From Lachnospiraceae bacterium (lineage in GTDB: Bacteria; Bacillota; Clostridia; Lachnospirales; Lachnospiraceae), in the NCBI GenBank assembly GCA_022781985.1, contig JALESH010000047.1, positions 1 to 32,059 of the forward strand: a stretch of 32,059 bases of DNA, in the 5' to 3' direction. Positions 6,142 through 32,044 of the stretch are shown here, piece after piece. Within the stretch, counting starts at the first letter, position 1. Every line of letters starts with the position of its first letter. The notes under the pieces were generated by a model. It saw only the letters and a list, made by a program, of their open reading frames with translations, was not told the DNA's origin and made no database searches. The position numbers were made by a program, and so were the translations under genes.

Positions 6142-7413
6142 ATGTCGTCTAAAATCGAAACAAAATGTATTCATGAGGGATGGAAGCCCTCTCAGGGAGA
6201 GCCCAGACAGCTTCCGATATATCAGAGCACCACTTTTAAATATGACAGCAGTGATGCCATGGGCAGGCTGTTTGATCTGGAAGCAGAGGGATATTTTTAT
6301 ACTAGGCTGCAGAATCCCACCAACGATGCGGTAGCGGCCAAGATATGCGCACTGGAGGGAGGCGCGGCAGCGATGCTCACATCCTCCGGGCAGGCTGCCA
6401 ATTTTTATGCGATTTTTAATATCTGCGAAGCAGGCGGCCATTTTATCGCATCCTCGTCCATCTATGGGGGAACCTATAATCTTTTTGGTGTTACCATGAA
6501 AAAGATGGGAATAGAGTGTACCTTTGTGGATCAGGAGCTGCCGGAGGAGGAGCTGGCAAAGTATTTCAGGCCCAATACCAAGGCAGTTTTTGGGGAGACG
6601 ATCACCAACCCTACCGTGTCTGTATTTGACTTTGAAAAATTTGCCGGGCTGGCCCATTCCCATGGGGTTCCGCTGATCGTGGACAATACCTTTGCAACAC
6701 CGGTCAACTGCAGACCCTTCGAATGGGGAGCGGACATTGTGACCCACTCTACCTCCAAGTATATGGATGGCCATGGGGTTGGCGTGGGAGGATGCATCGT
6801 AGACAGCGGTAATTTTGACTGGTCAGAGCATGCGGAGAAGTTCCCGGGACTGACCACGCCCGATGCATCCTATCATGGCATCACTTATACCGAAAGATTC
6901 GGTAAGGGCGCATACATAACCAAGGCTACAGCACAGCTAATGAGGGACTTTGGCTCTATCCAGTCCCCTCAGAATGCTTTTTATCTGAACCTGGGCCTGG
7001 AAACCCTCCCGCTGAGGATGGAAAGGCATTGCCGGAATGCTCTGGCTGTAGCCAGATTCCTGCAGTCTCAGGAACAGGTGGCCTGGGTACACTATCCGGG
7101 GCTGGAGGGTGACAGATATCATCACCTGGCAGTAAAATACATGCCTGATGGCACCTGCGGGGTACTGGCCTTTGGGATCAAAGGAGGGAGAGAAGCTTCC
7201 ATTGCATTTATGGATAAGCTGAAGGTGGCCTCCATCGTTACCCATGTGGCCGATGCTAAAACATGCCTGCTGCATCCGGCGAGCCATACTCACAGGCAGC
7301 TGACGGACGAGCAGCTTGCGGAATCCGGTGTGGCACCGGATCTGATCAGGCTTTCCGTAGGAATCGAAAATGCGGAGGATATCATTGAGGATCTGAGACA
7401 GGCGCTTCAATAA
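6142..7413 (+). CDS. metY: O-acetylhomoserine sulfhydrylase (Cys/Met metabolism PLP enzyme)
   Basis: A 423-residue PLP enzyme of the Cys/Met metabolism family. It is predicted to join O-acetylhomoserine with sulfide to give homocysteine in the cytoplasm, by-passing cystathionine. The cofactor lysine is K206 in THSTSKYMDGHG. Other family marks are YTRLQNPTN near the N-terminus, SSGQAANF, IVDNTFATP and LSVGIENAEDIIEDL at the end. The length (about 425) and the insertion around ASYHGITYTERFG favour the MetY type over cystathionine gamma-synthase (about 380). AAAAGGAGAAG precedes the ATG. It appears monocistronic: repeats and promoter upstream, strong terminator downstream. Sulfur-donor preference cannot be read from the sequence. 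Confidence 0.92.
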   Translation: MSSKIETKCIHEGWKPSQGEPRQLPIYQSTTFKYDSSDAMGRLFDLEAEGYFYTRLQNPTNDAVAAKICALEGGAAAMLTSSGQAANFYAIFNICEAGGHFIASSSIYGGTYNLFGVTMKKMGIECTFVDQELPEEELAKYFRPNTKAVFGETITNPTVSVFDFEKFAGLAHSHGVPLIVDNTFATPVNCRPFEWGADIVTHSTSKYMDGHGVGVGGCIVDSGNFDWSEHAEKFPGLTTPDASYHGITYTERFGKGAYITKATAQLMRDFGSIQSPQNAFYLNLGLETLPLRMERHCRNALAVARFLQSQEQVAWVHYPGLEGDRYHHLAVKYMPDGTCGVLAFGIKGGREASIAFMDKLKVASIVTHVADAKTCLLHPASHTHRQLTDEQLAESGVAPDLIRLSVGIENAEDIIEDLRQALQ

Positions 7414-7674: not shown

Positions 7675-8070
7675 ATGTATATTAACGGATGGGGCAAAAA
7701 TATACCGAGGATAAATAATCTGTCAGAAGCTTCCGGAAAAATTAACAGATCCGGGGCTGAGGAGGAGAATTTCCAGGAGAACCTGCTGAAAAGGATATCC
7801 GGAGATGGGATGCAGAGGGCGAAGGAGGTTCCGGTGCGGGGGATTCCGTATGAGGAGTGTGACTGCGTCAGGATAAATGTGCTGGAGGGCTATACCGTGA
7901 AAATCAAGCTGGAGGATGGCAGATTTGGAAAGGATACTGATGTCTATATAGAAGTGAAATGGGATAACGGAGACAAAAGGGCCTGCCTCTATGGGATGGC
8001 TGGATTAAAAGCCAATGGAAGCGATATGATGGAAAAAATAGCATACGAGTTATTGAAGAACAGAAAATAA
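7675..8070 (+). CDS. Uncharacterised protein
   Basis: I do not recognise this family. From the chosen start the protein has about 131 residues: a polar N-terminal half rich in Asn, Ser and Glu, and a folded-looking C-terminal half (CDCVRINVLEGYTVKIKLED, then DVYIEVKWDNGDKRACLYG) with alternating hydrophobic strands, ending in a helix. No signal peptide or membrane segment is visible. The start is uncertain: ATG at 7615 (20 residues longer) has no ribosome site, whereas ATG at 7675 has AAGGAG 13 nt upstream and begins MYINGWGKNIPRINN. The gene is followed 22 bp later by another unknown gene with which it probably forms an operon. Confidence 0.6.
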   Translation: MYINGWGKNIPRINNLSEASGKINRSGAEEENFQENLLKRISGDGMQRAKEVPVRGIPYEECDCVRINVLEGYTVKIKLEDGRFGKDTDVYIEVKWDNGDKRACLYGMAGLKANGSDMMEKIAYELLKNRK

Positions 8071-8092
8071 ACGGAAGGAAAAGGGTATCAAT

Positions 8093-8758
8093 ATGACAAT
8101 CTACAGAGTCGGAAATATACAAAATCATTCTTACAGCATGTTGACAAACAGGATTGCCTCTGAAGATGGAGGCGGAGGGGCAGGTGCCGGTCCGCTGAAT
8201 TCCCAAAGTAAACAGAGGATACTGCAGCCGGCAGATTATGAAAACAGCCGGGAAGGTATCCGGGATGCGGTTTTGAGGGCGGGCAGGGTTCGGGAAAGGG
8301 AGGCAGCCTGGAAACGGGATGCTTTGGAAAAGGTGATCTTCAGCCGTCTGGGACTTTCTGAGGCTGATCTGGAAAAGGCCATGGACAGTGCCGGAGGAAC
8401 GATTCGGAGAAAAGGAACCGGCGCACCCTATTCCTATCTGGCAGATGAAAATGGTATCATAGAATATAAAGGTGTGATATTCACCTGTGACAATGAAAGA
8501 AGGAGGCTGTGTCTGGGAGATGTATCCAATCCTGATCATGTGATACAGATTCCCCTCTCCCAAGGGGGCTGCCTGCTAGTGAACCGGAACAACATCGGAG
8601 ATTTAGGACGTGCCATCAGCATGTTCTCTCCGGAGGATATCAACAGGATACTGAGAGCCCTGAGTTTGGATGCCAAGCTCCGGGGGACGGAGAAGGAAAT
8701 AGAGGAGTGGCAGCTGGATATGCTTACGGGGAAGGTAGGTGAGCGGAATGACAGATGA
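8093..8758 (+). CDS. Uncharacterised cytoplasmic protein
   Basis: A 221-residue protein that I cannot assign. It begins MTIYRVGNIQNHSYS, has a glycine-rich stretch (GGGGAGAG) near residue 28, a helical charged middle (residues 55-100, with many Arg and Glu), a strand-rich section (about 115-155: EYKGVIFTCDNERRRLCLGD), and a helical end containing MFSPEDINRILRALSLDAKL. There is no signal peptide or membrane helix. GGAAGGAAAAGGG precedes the ATG. It follows the previous unknown gene by 22 bp, suggesting the two work together. Confidence 0.65.
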   Translation: MTIYRVGNIQNHSYSMLTNRIASEDGGGGAGAGPLNSQSKQRILQPADYENSREGIRDAVLRAGRVREREAAWKRDALEKVIFSRLGLSEADLEKAMDSAGGTIRRKGTGAPYSYLADENGIIEYKGVIFTCDNERRRLCLGDVSNPDHVIQIPLSQGGCLLVNRNNIGDLGRAISMFSPEDINRILRALSLDAKLRGTEKEIEEWQLDMLTGKVGERNDR

Positions 8759-26564: not shown

Positions 26565-26827
26565 ACCGTGCGTTCTGTGTTGAGCAAAACCAATATACGT
26601 TACCTTTACAGCCAACTCCGCCAGGCACCCTCACGGCACATGGAAGGTTCTGCTTAGTGCTGCTTTGTTCCCAACCTGACACGATTCACAGATTCCCATT
26701 GCGTGAGACCCAAACTTCAACGCCGCTTATAAAGGGCAGCTATACCAGCTAAAACCCGCGACAGAACATCACCCCTACTAGAGCGGATTGTAGGTACAGG
26801 ACACCGCTAACGCCCCGGCTGCACGGT
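26565..26827 (-). ncRNA. ffs: Signal recognition particle RNA, large (Alu-containing) type
   Basis: This 263-nt RNA with Ffh makes the signal recognition particle for membrane targeting. ACCGTGC at the 5' end pairs exactly with GCACGGT at the 3' end. The 5' part has the Alu-domain pattern (GGGGCGTTAGCGG, CCTGTACC, AATCCGCTCTAG). The SRP54-binding helix 8 is seen as GTCAGG, then TTG-GGAA-CAA (a GNRA tetraloop), then AGCAGCA. Location next to tadA is the common Firmicutes arrangement. The predicted transcription start, 26827, comes from the promoter spacing and agrees with the stem. Nothing in the stretch codes for protein. Confidence 0.93.
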
Positions 26828-27322
26828 CTATTTAGTATACTGTTTTTTTTGCATTTTGTCAATCTTATTCCGCAATCTCAGTTCCTTAAAAAAAAGAATG
26901 AGCAGCTGACTGCATTCCTCCTCCAGAATTCCCCGGCTTACTTCAGCCTGATGGTTGAACTGGGGCATCTCCAGGATATTGAGAATGGAGCCGCCGCAGC
27001 CGGCCTTGGGATTCATGCTTCCCATCACAACACGGGAGACACGGGCCTGAATGATTGCACCGGCGCACATCTGGCAGGGTTCCAGCGTAACATAGAGGGT
27101 GCAGCCCTCCAGACGCCAATCGCCGATCTTTTTGCTGGCCCTGCGGATGGCGGTGATCTCCGCATGGGAAAGGGTGTTTTTGTCGGTATTCCGGCGGTTG
27201 TAGCCCCTGCCGATGATTTTGCCTTCATAAACGATGACGCAGCCAATGGGAACCTCTCCCAGCAGATAAGCTTTTTTCGCCTGCTTTAAAGCTTCTTTCA
27301 TGTATTTTTCATCTATCTCCAT
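26828..27322 (-). CDS. tadA: tRNA-specific adenosine deaminase
   Basis: Converts adenosine 34 of tRNA-Arg(ACG) to inosine, needed to read arginine CGN codons. The 164-residue protein has the deaminase zinc site: His53 and Glu55 in SHAEITAI, and Cys83 and Cys86 in EPCQMCAGAI. GEVPIGCVIVYEGKIIGRG and NPKAGCGGS are also standard. The C-terminal tail is lysine-rich. AGGTGAT precedes the ATG at 27322. The stop abuts the first base of the SRP RNA, and the end of the gene carries the ffs promoter. Confidence 0.95.
   Translation of the reverse strand: MEIDEKYMKEALKQAKKAYLLGEVPIGCVIVYEGKIIGRGYNRRNTDKNTLSHAEITAIRRASKKIGDWRLEGCTLYVTLEPCQMCAGAIIQARVSRVVMGSMNPKAGCGGSILNILEMPQFNHQAEVSRGILEEECSQLLILFFKELRLRNKIDKMQKKQYTK
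26834..26862 (-). promoter_or_regulatory. Sigma-A promoter of ffs, inside the end of tadA
   Basis: Minus strand TTGACA (complement of 26857-26862), 17 bp, TATACT (complement of 26834-26839). The start site falls at 26827, the first base of the SRP RNA. The promoter is embedded in the last codons of tadA. Confidence 0.85.
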
Positions 27323-27443
27323 AAATCACCTCGTTTTTGGGTAGCATATATTTGCCGTCACTGTTGGCGGAATGAACAGTAACATTCAGTATAATATAAA
27401 TCAGCATTTACGGCAATATCCTGGTGCAAAAAGGCCCGGAATA

Positions 27444-27452
27444 TGCTATAAT
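27444..27452 (+). promoter_or_regulatory. Extended -10 promoter of the small membrane protein gene
   Basis: TATAAT at 27447-27452 with TG-C directly upstream (27444-27446). The -35 position (GTGCAA, 27424-27429) is poor, as usual for extended -10 promoters. Confidence 0.5.
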
Positions 27453-27505
27453 ACAAAGGCTGGGATACAAATGTAATATAAGGAAAGAGGCTGGGAATCA
27501 GGATC

Positions 27506-27531
27506 TTGAAAGGAGCATGGTTATAAATATG
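27506..27531 (+). promoter_or_regulatory. Repeated translation-initiation element, copy 2
   Basis: TTGAAAGGAGCATGG followed by TTATAAATATG; 25 of 26 positions match the copy at 24462-24487. Two in-frame ATGs, at 27517 and 27529. The near identity before two unrelated genes is unusual. Confidence 0.6.
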
Positions 27532-27645
27532 GAAATGATAATTTTAGGCGGCGGATTGTTGGTCATTATTGTTGCTGTTATTATTGCAGCGGTTACTTCT
27601 GTTGTGGCAGGTGTGGCAGCCAGTGAGGAGGATTCCAATATGTGA
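27529..27645 (+). CDS. 38-residue single-helix membrane peptide
   Basis: Starts MEMIILGGGLLVIIVA and ends ASEEDSNM. Residues about 3-30 form one uninterrupted hydrophobic helix with glycine and alanine, then an acidic tail. It could be a membrane-active peptide, a regulator of a larger membrane protein, or a type I toxin-like peptide. No convincing antisense RNA was seen on the other strand, which argues against the last. ATG at 27517 would add MVIN. A promoter and a strong ribosome site support expression. Confidence 0.65.
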   Translation: MEMIILGGGLLVIIVAVIIAAVTSVVAGVAASEEDSNM

Positions 27646-27782: not shown

Positions 27783-27818
27783 GAGAAAAAGACTCTGCAT
27801 CAGCAGAGTCTTTTTCTC
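27783..27818. terminator. Strong 16-bp stem terminator
   Basis: GAGAAAAAGACTCTGC, loop ATCA, then the exact complement GCAGAGTCTTTTTCTC. It has a T5 on the plus strand within the 3' arm, and is symmetrical, so it could act both ways. The 137 bp before it are AT-rich without an ORF and contain an AGATAGT/ACTATCT stem (27734-27768). That stretch is the 3' leader of the small peptide gene or an unannotated RNA. Confidence 0.85.
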
Positions 27819-27923: not shown

Positions 27924-29285
27924 ATGGAAAGCCTGAAAAGTGTAAGTGAAGCATTGCATAATAAAGGTCGGGAAGGAGCAGAGCATGGCGGCAAATCAGA
28001 GAAGCTGGAGAAGGCTTCCCTCCTGGCTGACAGAGTGATGAAGCTGGCCAGGGACAACATCCTGGTAAACCTGCGTTTTCTGGATGTGGCCCTGTCCGGG
28101 CTGAGCGCTGAGACCCGTCCGGGACTGGATGGAGCGGCAGCCGATGGGAAGCTGCTTTGTTATGATCCTGTGTGGCTGCTGCTGCAGTATAAACTGGAGC
28201 CCCATTATCCGGTCAGACTGTATCTGCACAGCCTGTTCCACTGTGTTTTTTATCATGGCTTCCAGTGTAAGGAGAGGGAGGAGGAACTGTGGGATCTGGC
28301 AGCAGATGCAGCGGTGGAAAGCGTGATTCTGGAGCTGGATCTGCACATGGCCGCTCTGGGAACGGATGCGGAGGCCAGGAACAAGCTGTATTATCTGAAG
28401 CAGGATGCGGGAATGCTGACGGCAGAGCGGATCTACCGCTATCTGAAGCACAATCCTGTCACGCCGGGGGAAAAGGCGCAGTGGCAGCGGCTGTTCTGCA
28501 GGGATAAACACATTTACTGGAGACAGCCGGAAGAGCTGGTGGTTACAGATGCCCAGTGGAAGAAGATCAGTGAAAGGATCAAGGCTGACTTAAAATCCTT
28601 TTCCGGGGACAGGAATCCTTCCGAGAGTCTGGAAAAAAATCTGGCGGAAGCAACTAGGGACAGATATGACTATGCAGATCTGCTCAGACGTTTTACCGTG
28701 ATGGGCGAGGAACTGCAGGTTAATGAGGAGGAATTTGATTATATTTATTATACTTATGGACTTTCCTCCTATGGCAATATGCCGTTGATAGAGCCGTTGG
28801 AATATAAGGACAGGAAGAAGGTGAAGGAATTTGTGATCGCCATAGATACCTCCGCTTCCTGCAGGGGAGAGCTGGTAAAGGAGTTTATCAGAAAAACCTA
28901 TTCTATTCTGAAGGGAACCGAATATTTTTTTCAAAAAATAAATGTGCATATTGTACAGTGTGACAGTGAGCTGCAGAGCGATACTAAGATTACCTGTGAG
29001 AAGGATTTTGAGGAGTTTATGAGAAACGGCAGGCTGAAGGGGTTCGGCTCTACCGATTTCAGGCCCGTATTTGAGTATGTGGACAGGCTGGCTGAAACAG
29101 GAGAGTTTGAGAATTTAAAGGGACTGATTTACTTTACTGACGGCTATGGAATTTACCCCACGCAGATGCCCTCCTATGACACAATTTTTGCATTTTTGGA
29201 GGAGGACTACAGGCGGCCGGAGGTTCCGCCATGGGCAATCAGGGTGGTTCTGAGTGAGGAGGAGATAGAGCAGGATGAATATTAA
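27924..29285 (+). CDS. VWA-domain protein with degenerate metallopeptidase-like N-terminus (DUF2201-type)
   Basis: A 453-residue protein. The N-terminal half resembles the DUF2201 putative metallopeptidase domain found with MoxR ATPases; the zinc motif is HSLFH at 102-106, so the catalytic glutamate of HExxH is missing and the domain is probably not a protease. The C-terminal half (about 300-450) is VWA-like: metal-ion site D308-T-S310-A-S312, then GFGSTDFRPVFEYV and YFTDGYG with D406. No signal peptide or membrane helix, so it is cytoplasmic. The start at 27924 has GGAG at about 13 nt and GGAAGAG immediately before it. The stop overlaps the MoxR start by 11 bp, so the two are translated together. 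It is the presumed adaptor or substrate-recognition partner of that ATPase (inference). Confidence 0.85.
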   Translation: MESLKSVSEALHNKGREGAEHGGKSEKLEKASLLADRVMKLARDNILVNLRFLDVALSGLSAETRPGLDGAAADGKLLCYDPVWLLLQYKLEPHYPVRLYLHSLFHCVFYHGFQCKEREEELWDLAADAAVESVILELDLHMAALGTDAEARNKLYYLKQDAGMLTAERIYRYLKHNPVTPGEKAQWQRLFCRDKHIYWRQPEELVVTDAQWKKISERIKADLKSFSGDRNPSESLEKNLAEATRDRYDYADLLRRFTVMGEELQVNEEEFDYIYYTYGLSSYGNMPLIEPLEYKDRKKVKEFVIAIDTSASCRGELVKEFIRKTYSILKGTEYFFQKINVHIVQCDSELQSDTKITCEKDFEEFMRNGRLKGFGSTDFRPVFEYVDRLAETGEFENLKGLIYFTDGYGIYPTQMPSYDTIFAFLEEDYRRPEVPPWAIRVVLSEEEIEQDEY

Positions 29286-30792
29286 GCAGGCAAAGGAGTA
29301 TATCAGGAATACGGTGGATTTATATCTCAAAAAGGATGAATTCGGCGAGTACAGGATTCCGGTGGTGAGGCAGAGGCCTATTTTTTTGCTGGGAGCACCG
29401 GGGGTGGGCAAGACAGCAATTATGGAGCAGGCTGCTCAGGAGCTTGGCATTGCATTGGTTTCCTATTCTATGACCCACCACACCAGACAGTCTGCGCTGG
29501 GACTGCCTTTTATAGTAGAAAAGGAGTATGGCGGGGAGAAATATCAGGTATCAGAGTACACAATGAGTGAAATTATTGCTTCCATCTATGATGTTATGAG
29601 GGATAGCGGAATCCGGGAGGGCATTCTCTTTCTGGACGAAATCAACTGTGTGTCGGAAACCCTGGCACCGTCCATGCTGCAGTTTTTGCAGTATAAGGTG
29701 TTCGGCAGGCACAGAGTGCCGGAGGGCTGGGTCATCGTAACAGCAGGTAATCCCCCGGAGTATAACAAATCCGTCAGGGAATTTGATGTGGTGACCATGG
29801 ACAGGCTGAAGGTACTGGAGGTGGAGGCAGATTATTCTGTGTGGAAGGAATATGCCCTGGAGCGTGGACTGCACAATGTGGTTACCAGCTATCTGGATCT
29901 GAAAAAGGAACATTTTTACAGGATAGAAACTACGGTGAAGGGACGATCCTATGTGACTGCCAGAGGATGGGAGGATCTGTCTCAGATGCTTTTTCTGTAT
30001 GAGGAGGAAAAGCTGCCTGTGGATGAGACGCTGGTGGGGCAATATCTGCGCAGCGAACGGGTAGTAAAAGAGTTTACGGCCTACTATGATCTGTACAATA
30101 AATATAAGAAAAACTATCATATAGAAGAGATTCTGGAGGGCAGGCTTCCTGAGGAGGCACTCCTCCGGGCCGGAGCCGCCGCCTTTGATGAGCGGCTGTC
30201 TCTGTTAAGCATGCTGATAGACAGAATGCAGAGTGAGATGAAGGAAAGAATGGAGGCTGCCGATTATCTGAGTGAGCTGGCGGTTCAGCTGAAAGCAGTC
30301 CCTGTGGGGATGGCCGGGGAAACTGCTCCGGGAGCGGTGGGAGACATGCTGGAACAGCAGGCAGAGAAAGCCAGAAAACGGATGGATTCTTTGAGGAGGG
30401 CCAATACTCTGTCTGATGCGGTCAGGAAAAAGTACAGAAGGGTGATCCATTTTCTGGAGGAGACAAAAAAGGAGATTTACATCGGAGATGCGGGAACGGC
30501 AGAGGAGGCTGCTGCTTATATTAAGCAGAAGTTTGACGGGGAAGTGGCCGGAATGAAAAAGGCTACAGAGACAACAAAGGAGAGGCTTCATGCTCTGTTC
30601 CACTTTGTGGAGGAGGCTTTCGCGGAAGGAAATGAGCTGCTGCTCCTGGTTACAGAGCTGACGGTGCATACGGCAAGCTCCCGGTTTATCGCTATGTTCG
30701 GCTGCGAGGACTATCGAAGGCATAATGAGAAGCTGCGGTTATCCCGGCGCGGGGAGGAGCTGCGGCAGGAGATTGAGAGGCTGGAGCTGTAA
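29275..30792 (+). CDS. MoxR-type AAA+ ATPase
   Basis: A 505-residue AAA+ protein. Walker A GAPGVGKT is at 40-47, Walker B ILFLDEIN with D121-E122, and sensor 1 in TAGNPPEYN. The MHHTRQSALGLP and KVFGRHRVPEGW segments fit the MoxR/midasin-like subgroup with its pre-sensor insertion. Residues about 310-505 form a long helical extension (RMQSEMKERMEAADYLSELA and a coiled-coil stretch) beyond the usual lid. MoxR ATPases act with VWA proteins in maturation or remodelling of protein complexes. It overlaps the VWA gene by 11 bp and precedes the LRR gene by 20 bp. The 200-residue tail is larger than in simple MoxR proteins. Confidence 0.92.
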   Translation: MNIKQAKEYIRNTVDLYLKKDEFGEYRIPVVRQRPIFLLGAPGVGKTAIMEQAAQELGIALVSYSMTHHTRQSALGLPFIVEKEYGGEKYQVSEYTMSEIIASIYDVMRDSGIREGILFLDEINCVSETLAPSMLQFLQYKVFGRHRVPEGWVIVTAGNPPEYNKSVREFDVVTMDRLKVLEVEADYSVWKEYALERGLHNVVTSYLDLKKEHFYRIETTVKGRSYVTARGWEDLSQMLFLYEEEKLPVDETLVGQYLRSERVVKEFTAYYDLYNKYKKNYHIEEILEGRLPEEALLRAGAAAFDERLSLLSMLIDRMQSEMKERMEAADYLSELAVQLKAVPVGMAGETAPGAVGDMLEQQAEKARKRMDSLRRANTLSDAVRKKYRRVIHFLEETKKEIYIGDAGTAEEAAAYIKQKFDGEVAGMKKATETTKERLHALFHFVEEAFAEGNELLLLVTELTVHTASSRFIAMFGCEDYRRHNEKLRLSRRGEELRQEIERLEL

Positions 30793-30812
30793 GGAAGAGG
30801 AAAAAGAGGGAA

Positions 30813-31757
30813 ATGAAAAGGAGTGCAAAGAGAGTGGAGACCCCCCAGGGGAGTCTGGAATATATCCTTGGGAGGGAAGGAGGCTGTGTTGTGGTCACAG
30901 GCTGCAGCGGTTGGGATACAGAACTGCGGATTCCTGCTGCAATAGAGGGGTTGCCTGTGACGGTCATCGCAAAAAAAGCCTTCCTCAGCAGGAAGCAGCT
31001 GAGGAGAGTGGTGCTGCCGGAGACGGTTGAGGAGATCGGAGACTGGGCATTTGCCTATTGCACCAATCTGGAAAGTGTATGGATGCCGAGAAAAAAATGT
31101 ACGCTGGGCAGCCGTATTTTTATGGAATGTCCCGGTATCCGCCGTTTGTTCCTCTATGAGGGCGGCAGAGAGGAGAAGAATCCTGCCAAAGCCTCTGAGA
31201 GAGAGGAGCAGACAGCGGCTCTGTTGGCAGCCAGTGCAGCTTTGCTGGAGGCGGAGTATCTGATGGATCCTATGGAGGCTGGCACCGGGCCCTGGCTGCA
31301 GAAATGGGATGCCAGGATGCTGCAGATGCTGCGGGCTGAGGATGGTGAGGGTTATACCAAAATGATACTCTGCGGAGAGGAGGATGCGGGAAGCAGTATG
31401 GAAATCTATCTCAACCGCAGGAGAAAGAGTAAGGTGCGTCTGGCCTTGCTGCGTCTGATGAATCCTCTGGAATTGTCGGGTGAGAGGGCACAGGAGCTGA
31501 GGGAGTATCTGGCGGCCCACACCAGGGGCTGCGAGTCGGAGGAGACCTGGGAGGTGATCCTAGGTGAGCACGGCCATGAACAGAAGTATTTTGAACTATT
31601 TACTGAGATCGGCGGCATAACAGAAGAAAATTTCCATGCCGTATTGACGGATATGGGGAACGAATATGCCGAAATGAAGGCCTTTCTGATCCGATACAGG
31701 GAAGAGAAAATGGAGTGTAAGGATTTCTTTGAGACGCTGTCGCTGGAGGGCTGGTAA
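30813..31757 (+). CDS. BspA-type leucine-rich-repeat protein with helical C-terminal domain
   Basis: A 314-residue protein. Residues about 20-115 contain BspA-type (LRR_5) repeats: LRIPAAIEGLPVTVIAKKAF, LRRVVLPETVEEIGDWAF, then LESVWMPRKKCTLGSRIF and IRRLFLYE. From about 125 the chain is helical and charged with no family I recognise (AALLAASAALLEAEYL, SKVRLALLRLMNPL, ending YREEKMECKDFFETLSLEGW). There is no signal peptide or anchor, so unlike surface BspA proteins it is likely cytoplasmic. The repeats could bind a target presented to the MoxR-VWA pair (inference). Start at 30813 has GAGGG six bases upstream. Confidence 0.8.
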   Translation: MKRSAKRVETPQGSLEYILGREGGCVVVTGCSGWDTELRIPAAIEGLPVTVIAKKAFLSRKQLRRVVLPETVEEIGDWAFAYCTNLESVWMPRKKCTLGSRIFMECPGIRRLFLYEGGREEKNPAKASEREEQTAALLAASAALLEAEYLMDPMEAGTGPWLQKWDARMLQMLRAEDGEGYTKMILCGEEDAGSSMEIYLNRRRKSKVRLALLRLMNPLELSGERAQELREYLAAHTRGCESEETWEVILGEHGHEQKYFELFTEIGGITEENFHAVLTDMGNEYAEMKAFLIRYREEKMECKDFFETLSLEGW

Positions 31758-31825
31758 AAGCAGCAGGAGGAAAGGTGTGCTGCGCGCAGGGACTCCTGAC
31801 TTGGGAAGGAGAGAGGTGAAAAGGG

Positions 31826-32044
31826 ATGGATGATGAGAAGCTGATAGATGAGATATTGAACCATCTGGATGGAGAAACCCGAATGGGGGTGAAGCGGATG
31901 AGTGTGGAGGTGGACGCGCACAGCAGCGCTCCCGCCAGGGTATCCCGCAAATGCTGCAATATGTATGGACGGCCGGCCAGTGAAACGGTAGGGCTGCTGG
32001 ACTGTTATACCGACCTGAATGCCGGACGGCCGGATAATGAATAG
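31826..32044 (+). CDS. 72-residue cysteine-containing small protein
   Basis: An acidic helical start (MDDEKLIDEILNHLDGETRM) then VKRMSVEVDAH, a Cys-Cys pair in SRKCCNMYGRP, and GLLDCYTDLNAG with a third cysteine. I recognise no family. Three cysteines suggest metal or disulfide use, but no standard CxxC pattern is present. AGGAG and AAAGGG precede the ATG; the LRR gene ends 68 bp upstream. It is the last gene of the probable MoxR operon and is complete within the window. Confidence 0.6.
   Translation: MDDEKLIDEILNHLDGETRMGVKRMSVEVDAHSSAPARVSRKCCNMYGRPASETVGLLDCYTDLNAGRPDNE

Follow-up and report, generated by a model that had tools for sequence, protein, structure and literature searches.

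The VWA, MoxR and LRR genes at the end of the window (the whole contig, 32,059 nucleotides, of a Lachnospiraceae bacterium) belong together, and the fourth, small gene that follows them is probably a neighbour (Table 1). We propose, with middling confidence, that the three products act as a MoxR-VWA remodelling machine in which the LRR protein is a client adaptor docked through its helical CTD. No description of a MoxR-VWA-LRR-CTD trio was found among open-licence PMC papers, and the trio appears undescribed so far.

Table 1. Features of the module in the window.
Feature	Position	Strand	Remarks
Terminator-like stem-loop	27783..27818		16-pair stem, on both strands; consensus match only
VWA ORF	27924-29285	+	453 aa
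MoxR ORF	29275-30792	+	505 aa; 11-bp overlap with VWA
LRR ORF (LRR-CTD partner)	30813-31757	+	314 aa; 20-bp gap after MoxR
CTD core, conserved	31422..31724	+	residues 204-304 of the LRR protein; kept, or fused to VWA, at loci without LRR
Small-protein ORF	31826-32044	+	72 aa; 68-bp gap after LRR; probably neighbour, not core

The four open reading frames, all on one strand, and their spacings are as the first-pass annotation had them, except that its title put MoxR first, and the actual order is VWA, MoxR, LRR, small gene. The stem-loop lies between the module and a short upstream open reading frame, and may separate the module from transcription upstream. Because the contig ends 15 bp past the small gene, the gene content beyond it is unreadable here.

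The LRR protein had been suspected to be a conserved partner of the MoxR-VWA pair, and the relatives bear this out. In a sample of 150 Lachnospiraceae genomes, one per genus, VWA is present in 78, and an LRR-CTD or CTD protein was found in 76 of these 78 genomes versus none of the 72 VWA-negative ones (Fisher 3e-41, a statistic not corrected for phylogeny); all 76 CTD-carrying genomes thus also carry VWA. Linkage was counted over 89 VWA loci, being the 90 fetched family loci minus a distant DUF2201 locus (L213), with a VWA fragment at a contig end (in G040) left out. At 78 of the 89, an LRR or CTD lies within 2.2 kb or is fused: the LRR gene is upstream at 50, downstream at 18 and on the other strand at one, a CTD-only open reading frame is upstream at four, and the CTD is fused to VWA at five. 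The remaining 11 have no partner, four of them (L204, L184, L171 and L214) being cut by contig ends. The CTD model behind these counts included CTD-only and fused sequences, and missed the CTD of L143.

The three genes are also closely spaced. Among the loci of the 150-genome sample with a nearby or fused partner, VWA and MoxR lie on the same strand and at most 100 nt apart in 70 of the 76 measured, as do an upstream partner and VWA in 51 of 54, and MoxR and a downstream LRR gene in 18 of 18; because each open reading frame was extended to its earliest start codon, the gaps are lower bounds. In the named genome collection, MoxR is directly upstream of the LRR gene at 44 of the 48 LRR loci (L041-L087 and L089); L077 among these comes from a genome recorded as Lachnospiraceae bacterium COE1 and not as a MAG. 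Outside the family, an LRR protein is near VWA in seven of eight loci, and the eighth is cut. A quick VWA tree indicates several changes of gene order in which the partner was retained; the tree holds 115 of 144 rows, with 12 named-collection loci kept and rows of 350 residues or fewer dropped beforehand, and scores the opposite-strand LRR gene of L169 as downstream.

Exceptions to this pattern were followed individually. One genome (G068) has VWA and MoxR with no CTD found, so the CTD appears dispensable there; its VWA has an altered MIDAS. In G021 a contig end truncates the partner. The LRR-CTD gene lies far away or on another contig in G119, G236 and G427, and about 6-8 kb from VWA in G052 and G041. 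Among individual loci, L201 and L202 are second VWA-MoxR copies in their genomes with no partner nearby, in L207 the MoxR and LRR genes sit together some 8 kb away from VWA, at L205 an LRR gene is located on the opposite strand at a distance of about 6 kb (L173 is in the same genome), and L165 has its LRR-CTD gene on another contig. No LRR-CTD partner was found in the genome of L157, and a search of G437 (L150, cut) with the window LRR protein gave no match.

What, then, is conserved in the third protein? Pfam recognises only LRR_5 (PF13306), at residues 51-112, and gives no match for the CTD. The AlphaFold2 model (pLDDT 92.5) consists of a short solenoid at about residues 6-118 and an all-helical part at 129-309, in agreement with the LRR plus helical-domain architecture guessed earlier. 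Foldseek and VIA-align bear on the LRR half, which matches BspA-type and other LRR proteins of solved structure; its PF13306 repeats and solenoid fold make it BspA-type. The window protein differs from BspA-type LRR proteins such as T. pallidum TpLRR (PDB 6mlx) in its helical CTD, in its linkage to MoxR-VWA, and in having no signal peptide apparent by eye at its N-terminus. No functional homologue of the CTD was found to lean on. The LRR array is variable, the partner proteins reaching 1,177 residues, and in most of the partner proteins inspected the CTD is at the C-terminal end.

A leave-out CTD model, trained on LRR-bearing proteins only, without CTD-only or fused sequences, matched 133 of 14,095 open reading frames. 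While 124 of these bear LRRs, the other nine do not: four lie directly upstream of VWA, and five are VWA proteins themselves. Since the 14,095 open reading frames come from loci centred on VWA or LRR, genome-wide specificity of the CTD rests on the 150-genome search. One branch lacks the LRR arm; there the CTD occurs either as a small protein of its own or as an N-terminal fusion to VWA. Because the CTD is found free upstream of VWA or within VWA, without LRR, conservation lies in the helical CTD and not in the LRR. The same forms bear on the reading in which the LRR-CTD protein is a dedicated client, matured or opened by MoxR-VWA and then working elsewhere in the cell. Such a client would leave identical linkage and co-occurrence data, and known MoxR-VWA pairs mature specific protein complexes, according to excerpts of the literature. 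We nevertheless consider it rather unlikely, because with the CTD fused to VWA in five loci and LRR-free in four, a machine part fits better than a client.

The VWA protein passes the Pfam cut-offs for both PF09967 (43 bits, cut-off 26.4) and DUF2201_N (PF13203; 34.8 bits, cut-off 23.2), which upholds the DUF2201-like N-terminus assigned previously. In its C-terminal VWA domain the MIDAS is intact (D308, S310, S312, T377 and D406), as it is in 138 of 141 VWA relatives. The N-terminal domain is degenerate metallopeptidase-like, with the pattern H102-x3-H106-x4-H111. Position 103 is Ser in the window, so that the catalytic Glu of HExxH is gone, and E132 is kept. Over the 141 VWA rows, H102 is conserved in 139, H106 in 138, H111 in 137 and E132 in 132, and Glu103 is found only in L157 and L176. 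Since three His and an acid are kept and the catalytic Glu is lost, the domain is, judged from its residues, a former metallopeptidase that now serves as a scaffold or putative metal-binding module and not as a protease. The structure model of the VWA protein is mediocre (pLDDT 78.7); a search with it brought up generic VWA domains, all with E above 0.001, and no solved relatives of the protein were found.

The near-invariant residues would also suit a metal-insertion chaperone, in which the three His and the acid hold a metal for a client metalloenzyme that the LRR finds; roles in metal insertion are described for NorQD, CoxD-CoxE and Mg-chelatase in literature excerpts. On the other hand, the metal site is a predicted one and is lost in two CTD-fused VWA proteins (L158 and L159), and no linked metalloenzyme was recognised by eye among the neighbours. 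We therefore regard metal insertion as distinctly unlikely.

The AAA+ protein is, by its motifs, of MoxR type, with an AAA+ core that scores 33.8 bits for PF07728 (cut-off 22) and 31.6 for PF00004 (cut-off 21.2). Its predicted Walker A (GAPGVGKT) and Walker B (LFLDE) patterns recur in 42 and 43 of 44 clade members, respectively, two members being cut by contig starts. Its matches among solved structures are weak ones, to Midasin and VCP-like ATPases.

We compared the trio with known MoxR-VWA systems. NorQ-NorD and CbbQ-CbbO likewise pair a MoxR protein with a VWA protein that carries both a MIDAS and an N-terminal domain, and the clients are nitric oxide reductase and Rubisco (excerpts of PMC13036017 and PMC9976466); the linked LRR-CTD protein sets the trio apart. 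No nor or cbb client genes were recognised near the module, judged by eye from the first residues of neighbouring open reading frames. Plain DUF2201-MoxR pairs (L154, L155 and L213; phage PHROG 1297 and 1314) share the kinds of VWA and AAA+ protein. In L154, L155 and L213, however, the order is MoxR before VWA, and neither LRR nor CTD was found in the vicinity; these three form a deep separate branch in the quick VWA tree, and two of them keep the HExxH Glu.

The same plan is found in the MoxR-vWA ternary systems (VMAP, iSTAND, FtsH, beta-propeller, iSTAND2 and TERNS3), in which a MoxR AAA+ and vWA pair is joined by a conserved, system-specific third protein (excerpts of PMC7159879 and PMC8195603). 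A conserved third component beside the MoxR-vWA core is present here too; it combines an LRR part with a helical CTD that matches nothing in Pfam, and the vWA carries a degenerate DUF2201_N. The excerpts report ternary systems mainly from multicellular prokaryotes, whereas the trio is mostly from one Bacillota family. The beta-propeller system differs further in that Pfam finds no propeller in the window VWA protein, although the MoxR protein barely passes the bpMoxR cut-off (PF20030; 27.2 versus 27). We regard the trio as a new variant of MoxR-VWA machines, marked by its LRR-CTD third part.

The shared plan, together with the variable LRR length, raises the question of a conflict (defence) system akin to the ternary ones, in which the LRR arm would sense an invader. 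Pfam, NCBIfam and PADLOC found no effector domain in the four window proteins, the contig ending after the small gene. PADLOC gave weak IetA-like matches to the window AAA protein and none to the other three, and a weak PDC-M15A match in two of 35 VWA relatives (best E 0.0028). By eye the neighbours look unremarkable; they vary from one lineage to another but are conserved in one clade, and plasmids hold only two distant matches. In the phage collection 11 records match, nine of them called Bacteriophage sp., short unannotated faecal records that are possibly bacterial; for Thermus phage phiFa the match extends over 30% of the query, and a Moorella record is not among the matches listed. Among viral contigs, 80 loci were kept, at 19-41% identity and mostly covering the VWA domain alone. 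A defence role is, in our judgement, unlikely.

The first-pass annotation had tied both the LRR gene and the small gene to the MoxR-VWA pair, the latter as client or regulator in a four-part operon. The LRR gene does stay linked, but the small gene is mostly apart. It follows the LRR gene directly only in the window and in five of the 48 LRR loci, L041-L045, which are the closest to the window. A strong match was found in six of the 150 family genomes, all of which carry the module, a point in favour of the link, though all six also fall in the clade that shares the gene order of the window; of the five besides the window, four have the small gene away from the module, and one has it about 1.6 kb upstream of VWA with two genes between. 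In the other 72 of the 78 module-bearing genomes nothing matches at E below 1e-30. Weaker relatives, at G000:C30 and at sites in six other genomes, align only with the N-terminal part, up to position 44 of 72. Pfam gave nothing above cut-off, and the second Cys of the pair is not invariant. On its linkage we reject the small protein as a core part; it is a member of a separate small-protein family and probably a neighbour, and the four-part operon is highly improbable.

In the three-part machine that we favour, the proteins would form a physical complex, with ring, VWA finger and MIDAS modelled on NorQ-NorD (excerpts of PMC13036017 and PMC9976466). MoxR would form an ATP-driven ring, and the VWA protein would be a lever that plugs into the ring and uses its MIDAS metal site to grip the client. 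The helical CTD of the adaptor would dock to the machine on its VWA side, leaving the LRR arm to recognise the client; selection of the client by the LRR, suggested earlier, is plausible.

Five genomes (G002, G022, G086, G112 and G129) each hold a linked and a second, unlinked LRR-CTD copy; G040, with its VWA on a contig end, and G041, with a partial match short of the CTD, were not counted. We tentatively raise the possibility that the CTD is a plug-in socket, such that several LRR-CTD adaptors, linked and unlinked paralogues alike, share a single MoxR-VWA engine in each cell, much as F-box proteins serve one ubiquitin ligase.

To our knowledge, MoxR-VWA machines are widespread and their client choice is poorly understood. 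Here one conserved domain marks the third part, whether free, fused to VWA or joined to LRR arms of differing length, and it was never found without VWA in the 150 genomes; client selection therefore becomes a testable, modular question. Of the 150 genera sampled from this family of gut bacteria, 78 have the system, and if the CTD does serve as a socket for several adaptors, this family would own a modular remodelling machine with LRR-coded specificity.

The window takes in the whole contig, which ends 15 bp past the small gene, and the overlap and gaps described in the first-pass annotation agree with the ORF coordinates (table). Pfam assigned domains to the VWA, MoxR and LRR proteins, NCBIfam matched none of the four proteins above its cut-offs, PADLOC gave only weak matches, to the AAA protein, and the small protein had no match above a cut-off in any of the three. 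The consensus scan listed no plus-strand terminator-like stem-loop between the LRR and small genes. For the short ORF ahead of the module, tblastn with 42 residues found no significant match among the fetched loci; in locus L100, a short ORF of similar appearance (6637-6840) is found close to the small-protein gene.

Features of the module and the region before it (window coordinates)
Feature	Position	Strand	Basis or remark
Bacterial large SRP RNA gene	26566-26826	-	Rfam RF01854, 177 bits
Deaminase-like ORF, adjoins SRP RNA gene	26828-27322	-	resembles tadA (by eye)
Short ORF before module	27424-27645	+	hydrophobic stretch, acidic tail
Terminator-like stem-loop ahead of module	27783-27818		consensus scan only
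VWA protein ORF	27924-29285	+	ORF call
MoxR-type AAA+ ATPase ORF	29275-30792	+	ORF call; 11-bp overlap with VWA ORF
LRR protein ORF	30813-31757	+	ORF call; 20-bp gap after MoxR ORF
Small protein ORF, 72 residues	31826-32044	+	ORF call; 68-bp gap after LRR ORF

The LRR protein goes together with the VWA and MoxR proteins. When a set of 84,980 species, each represented by a single genome, was searched with it, 59 loci were obtained, 48 of which (L041-L087 and L089) encode an LRR protein of the window kind. MoxR stands directly upstream of the LRR gene in 44 of the 48 (exceptions L082, L083, L087 and L089); LRR genes mostly away from MoxR-VWA pairs, the refuting case named in the first-pass annotation, are not what these loci show. 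Within Lachnospiraceae, the VWA protein was matched at E <= 1e-15 in 78 of 150 genomes (one per genus). Twenty divergent VWA loci hand-picked from these 78 genomes have the order LRR-VWA-MoxR, with the LRR gene directly upstream in 19 and about 2 kb upstream in L132. Among 89 fetched family loci with this VWA, and with a partner distance limit of 2.2 kb, the LRR protein is encoded upstream of VWA in 50, downstream in 18 and on the other strand in 1; the helical C-terminal domain (CTD) of the LRR protein occurs without LRR as an upstream CTD-only ORF in 4 and fused to VWA in 5; and 11 have no partner, 4 of them cut by a contig end.

Outside the family sample, VWA at E <= 1e-12 is rare (16/291 genomes in the class sample and 6/199 in the phylum sample, the window's own included in each). 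Fifteen further VWA loci from these samples were inspected, 8 of them from other families. An LRR protein lies within 2.2 kb in 10 of the 15 and one locus is cut; the LRR-CTD gene is about 5-6 kb upstream of VWA in genomes G330 and G175, and present but unlinked in G427 and G236. For the other families, LRR is near in 7 of 8 loci and the remaining one is cut. In the phage collection, VWA relatives (33-47% identity) occur in MT837836.1 and eight other short, unannotated faecal Bacteriophage sp. records, which are possibly bacterial contigs.

The CTD is the portion of the LRR protein that is kept. Alignment with hhalign (probability 99.9, E 5.9e-35) shows end-to-end homology between the LRR protein of the window and the upstream type, encoded before VWA. 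The LRR array varies in length, and partner proteins reach 591, 777 and 1,177 residues. A CTD model trained on 40 LRR-bearing upstream-type proteins matched 133 of 14,095 ORFs (176 loci, 2.14 Mb), 124 of them LRR-bearing, and matched the window LRR protein at 1e-6 over residues 204-304. The nine LRR-free matches (E 1.6e-12 to 1.4e-4) comprise four short ORFs that immediately precede VWA (L185, L189, L190, L197) and five VWA N-termini (L156, L158, L159, L196, L200). Because this ORF set was fetched around VWA or LRR genes, the genome-wide specificity of the CTD rests on a profile search of the 150 family genomes.

In that search, a 33-row CTD profile, CTD-only forms among its rows, matched 70 genomes, all within the 78 VWA-positive ones, and six further VWA-positive genomes have a window-type LRR protein with alignments extending into the CTD. 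Window-type alignments that extend into the CTD, to query residue 290 or further, were found in 18 genomes, all VWA-positive. LRR-CTD or CTD is thus present in 76/78 VWA-positive versus 0/72 VWA-negative genomes (Fisher 3e-41, uncorrected for phylogeny). As for the other two, the LRR gene of G021 runs off its contig, and in G068 no CTD was found, only ordinary BspA repeats. Cut loci apart, G068 (L157, 4952-8603) is the sole VWA-bearing genome without a CTD match; its VWA has an altered MIDAS and an HExxH motif with a glutamate, and its MoxR a long Gly/Asn-rich insert.

On a quick VWA tree, with weak support on 37 of 112 inner branches, the nine LRR-free CTD rows account for only two changes. 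All gene-arrangement labels together require 16 changes against a shuffled mean of 50.8, which argues that gene order changed repeatedly while the partner was kept.

The small protein, proposed in the first-pass annotation as a fourth member, is treated here as a neighbour of the module. It has strong matches in 6 of the 150 family genomes, and its gene directly follows the LRR gene only in the window and in loci L041-L045. In L100, L101, L102 and L104 the surrounding 10 kb contain no VWA, MoxR or LRR gene, and in L103 two genes separate the small gene from a VWA gene about 1.6 kb downstream of it. In L119 an unlinked LRR-CTD gene is immediately followed by a 71-residue ORF (8040-8255) that resembles the small protein by eye only; an 81-residue frame elsewhere in the window's own genome (G000:C30:32297-32428) resembles it by profile (E 4.8e-5).

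The trio shares its general plan with the MoxR-vWA ternary systems, but in the portions of PMC7159879 and PMC8195603 drawn on here those systems belong to another group of bacteria and the third component of the trio is not named; unlike them, the trio has no recognised effector. In NorQ-NorD, according to the parts of PMC13036017 and PMC9976466 that concern it, each MoxR hexamer carries a single VWA protein whose finger reaches into the pore, MIDAS is thought to contact an acidic client site, and the N-terminal domain provides a second point of grip. If this scheme is carried over by analogy, the CTD may dock close to the N-terminal domain of VWA, as suggested by its fusion at that end in five loci, and the LRR would contribute the choice of client.

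Unlinked LRR-CTD genes in two genomes (L111, 4235-5991; L118, 7671-9496) follow, by eye, fatty-acid-synthesis-like genes and a MarR-like regulator, and a similar-looking ORF of 251-260 residues comes next downstream; the L111 version of this ORF has no Pfam match. A second, unlinked LRR-CTD gene is present in five VWA-positive genomes (G002, G022, G086, G112, G129). These copies could equally have departed from the system, or they would fit several adaptors serving one engine.
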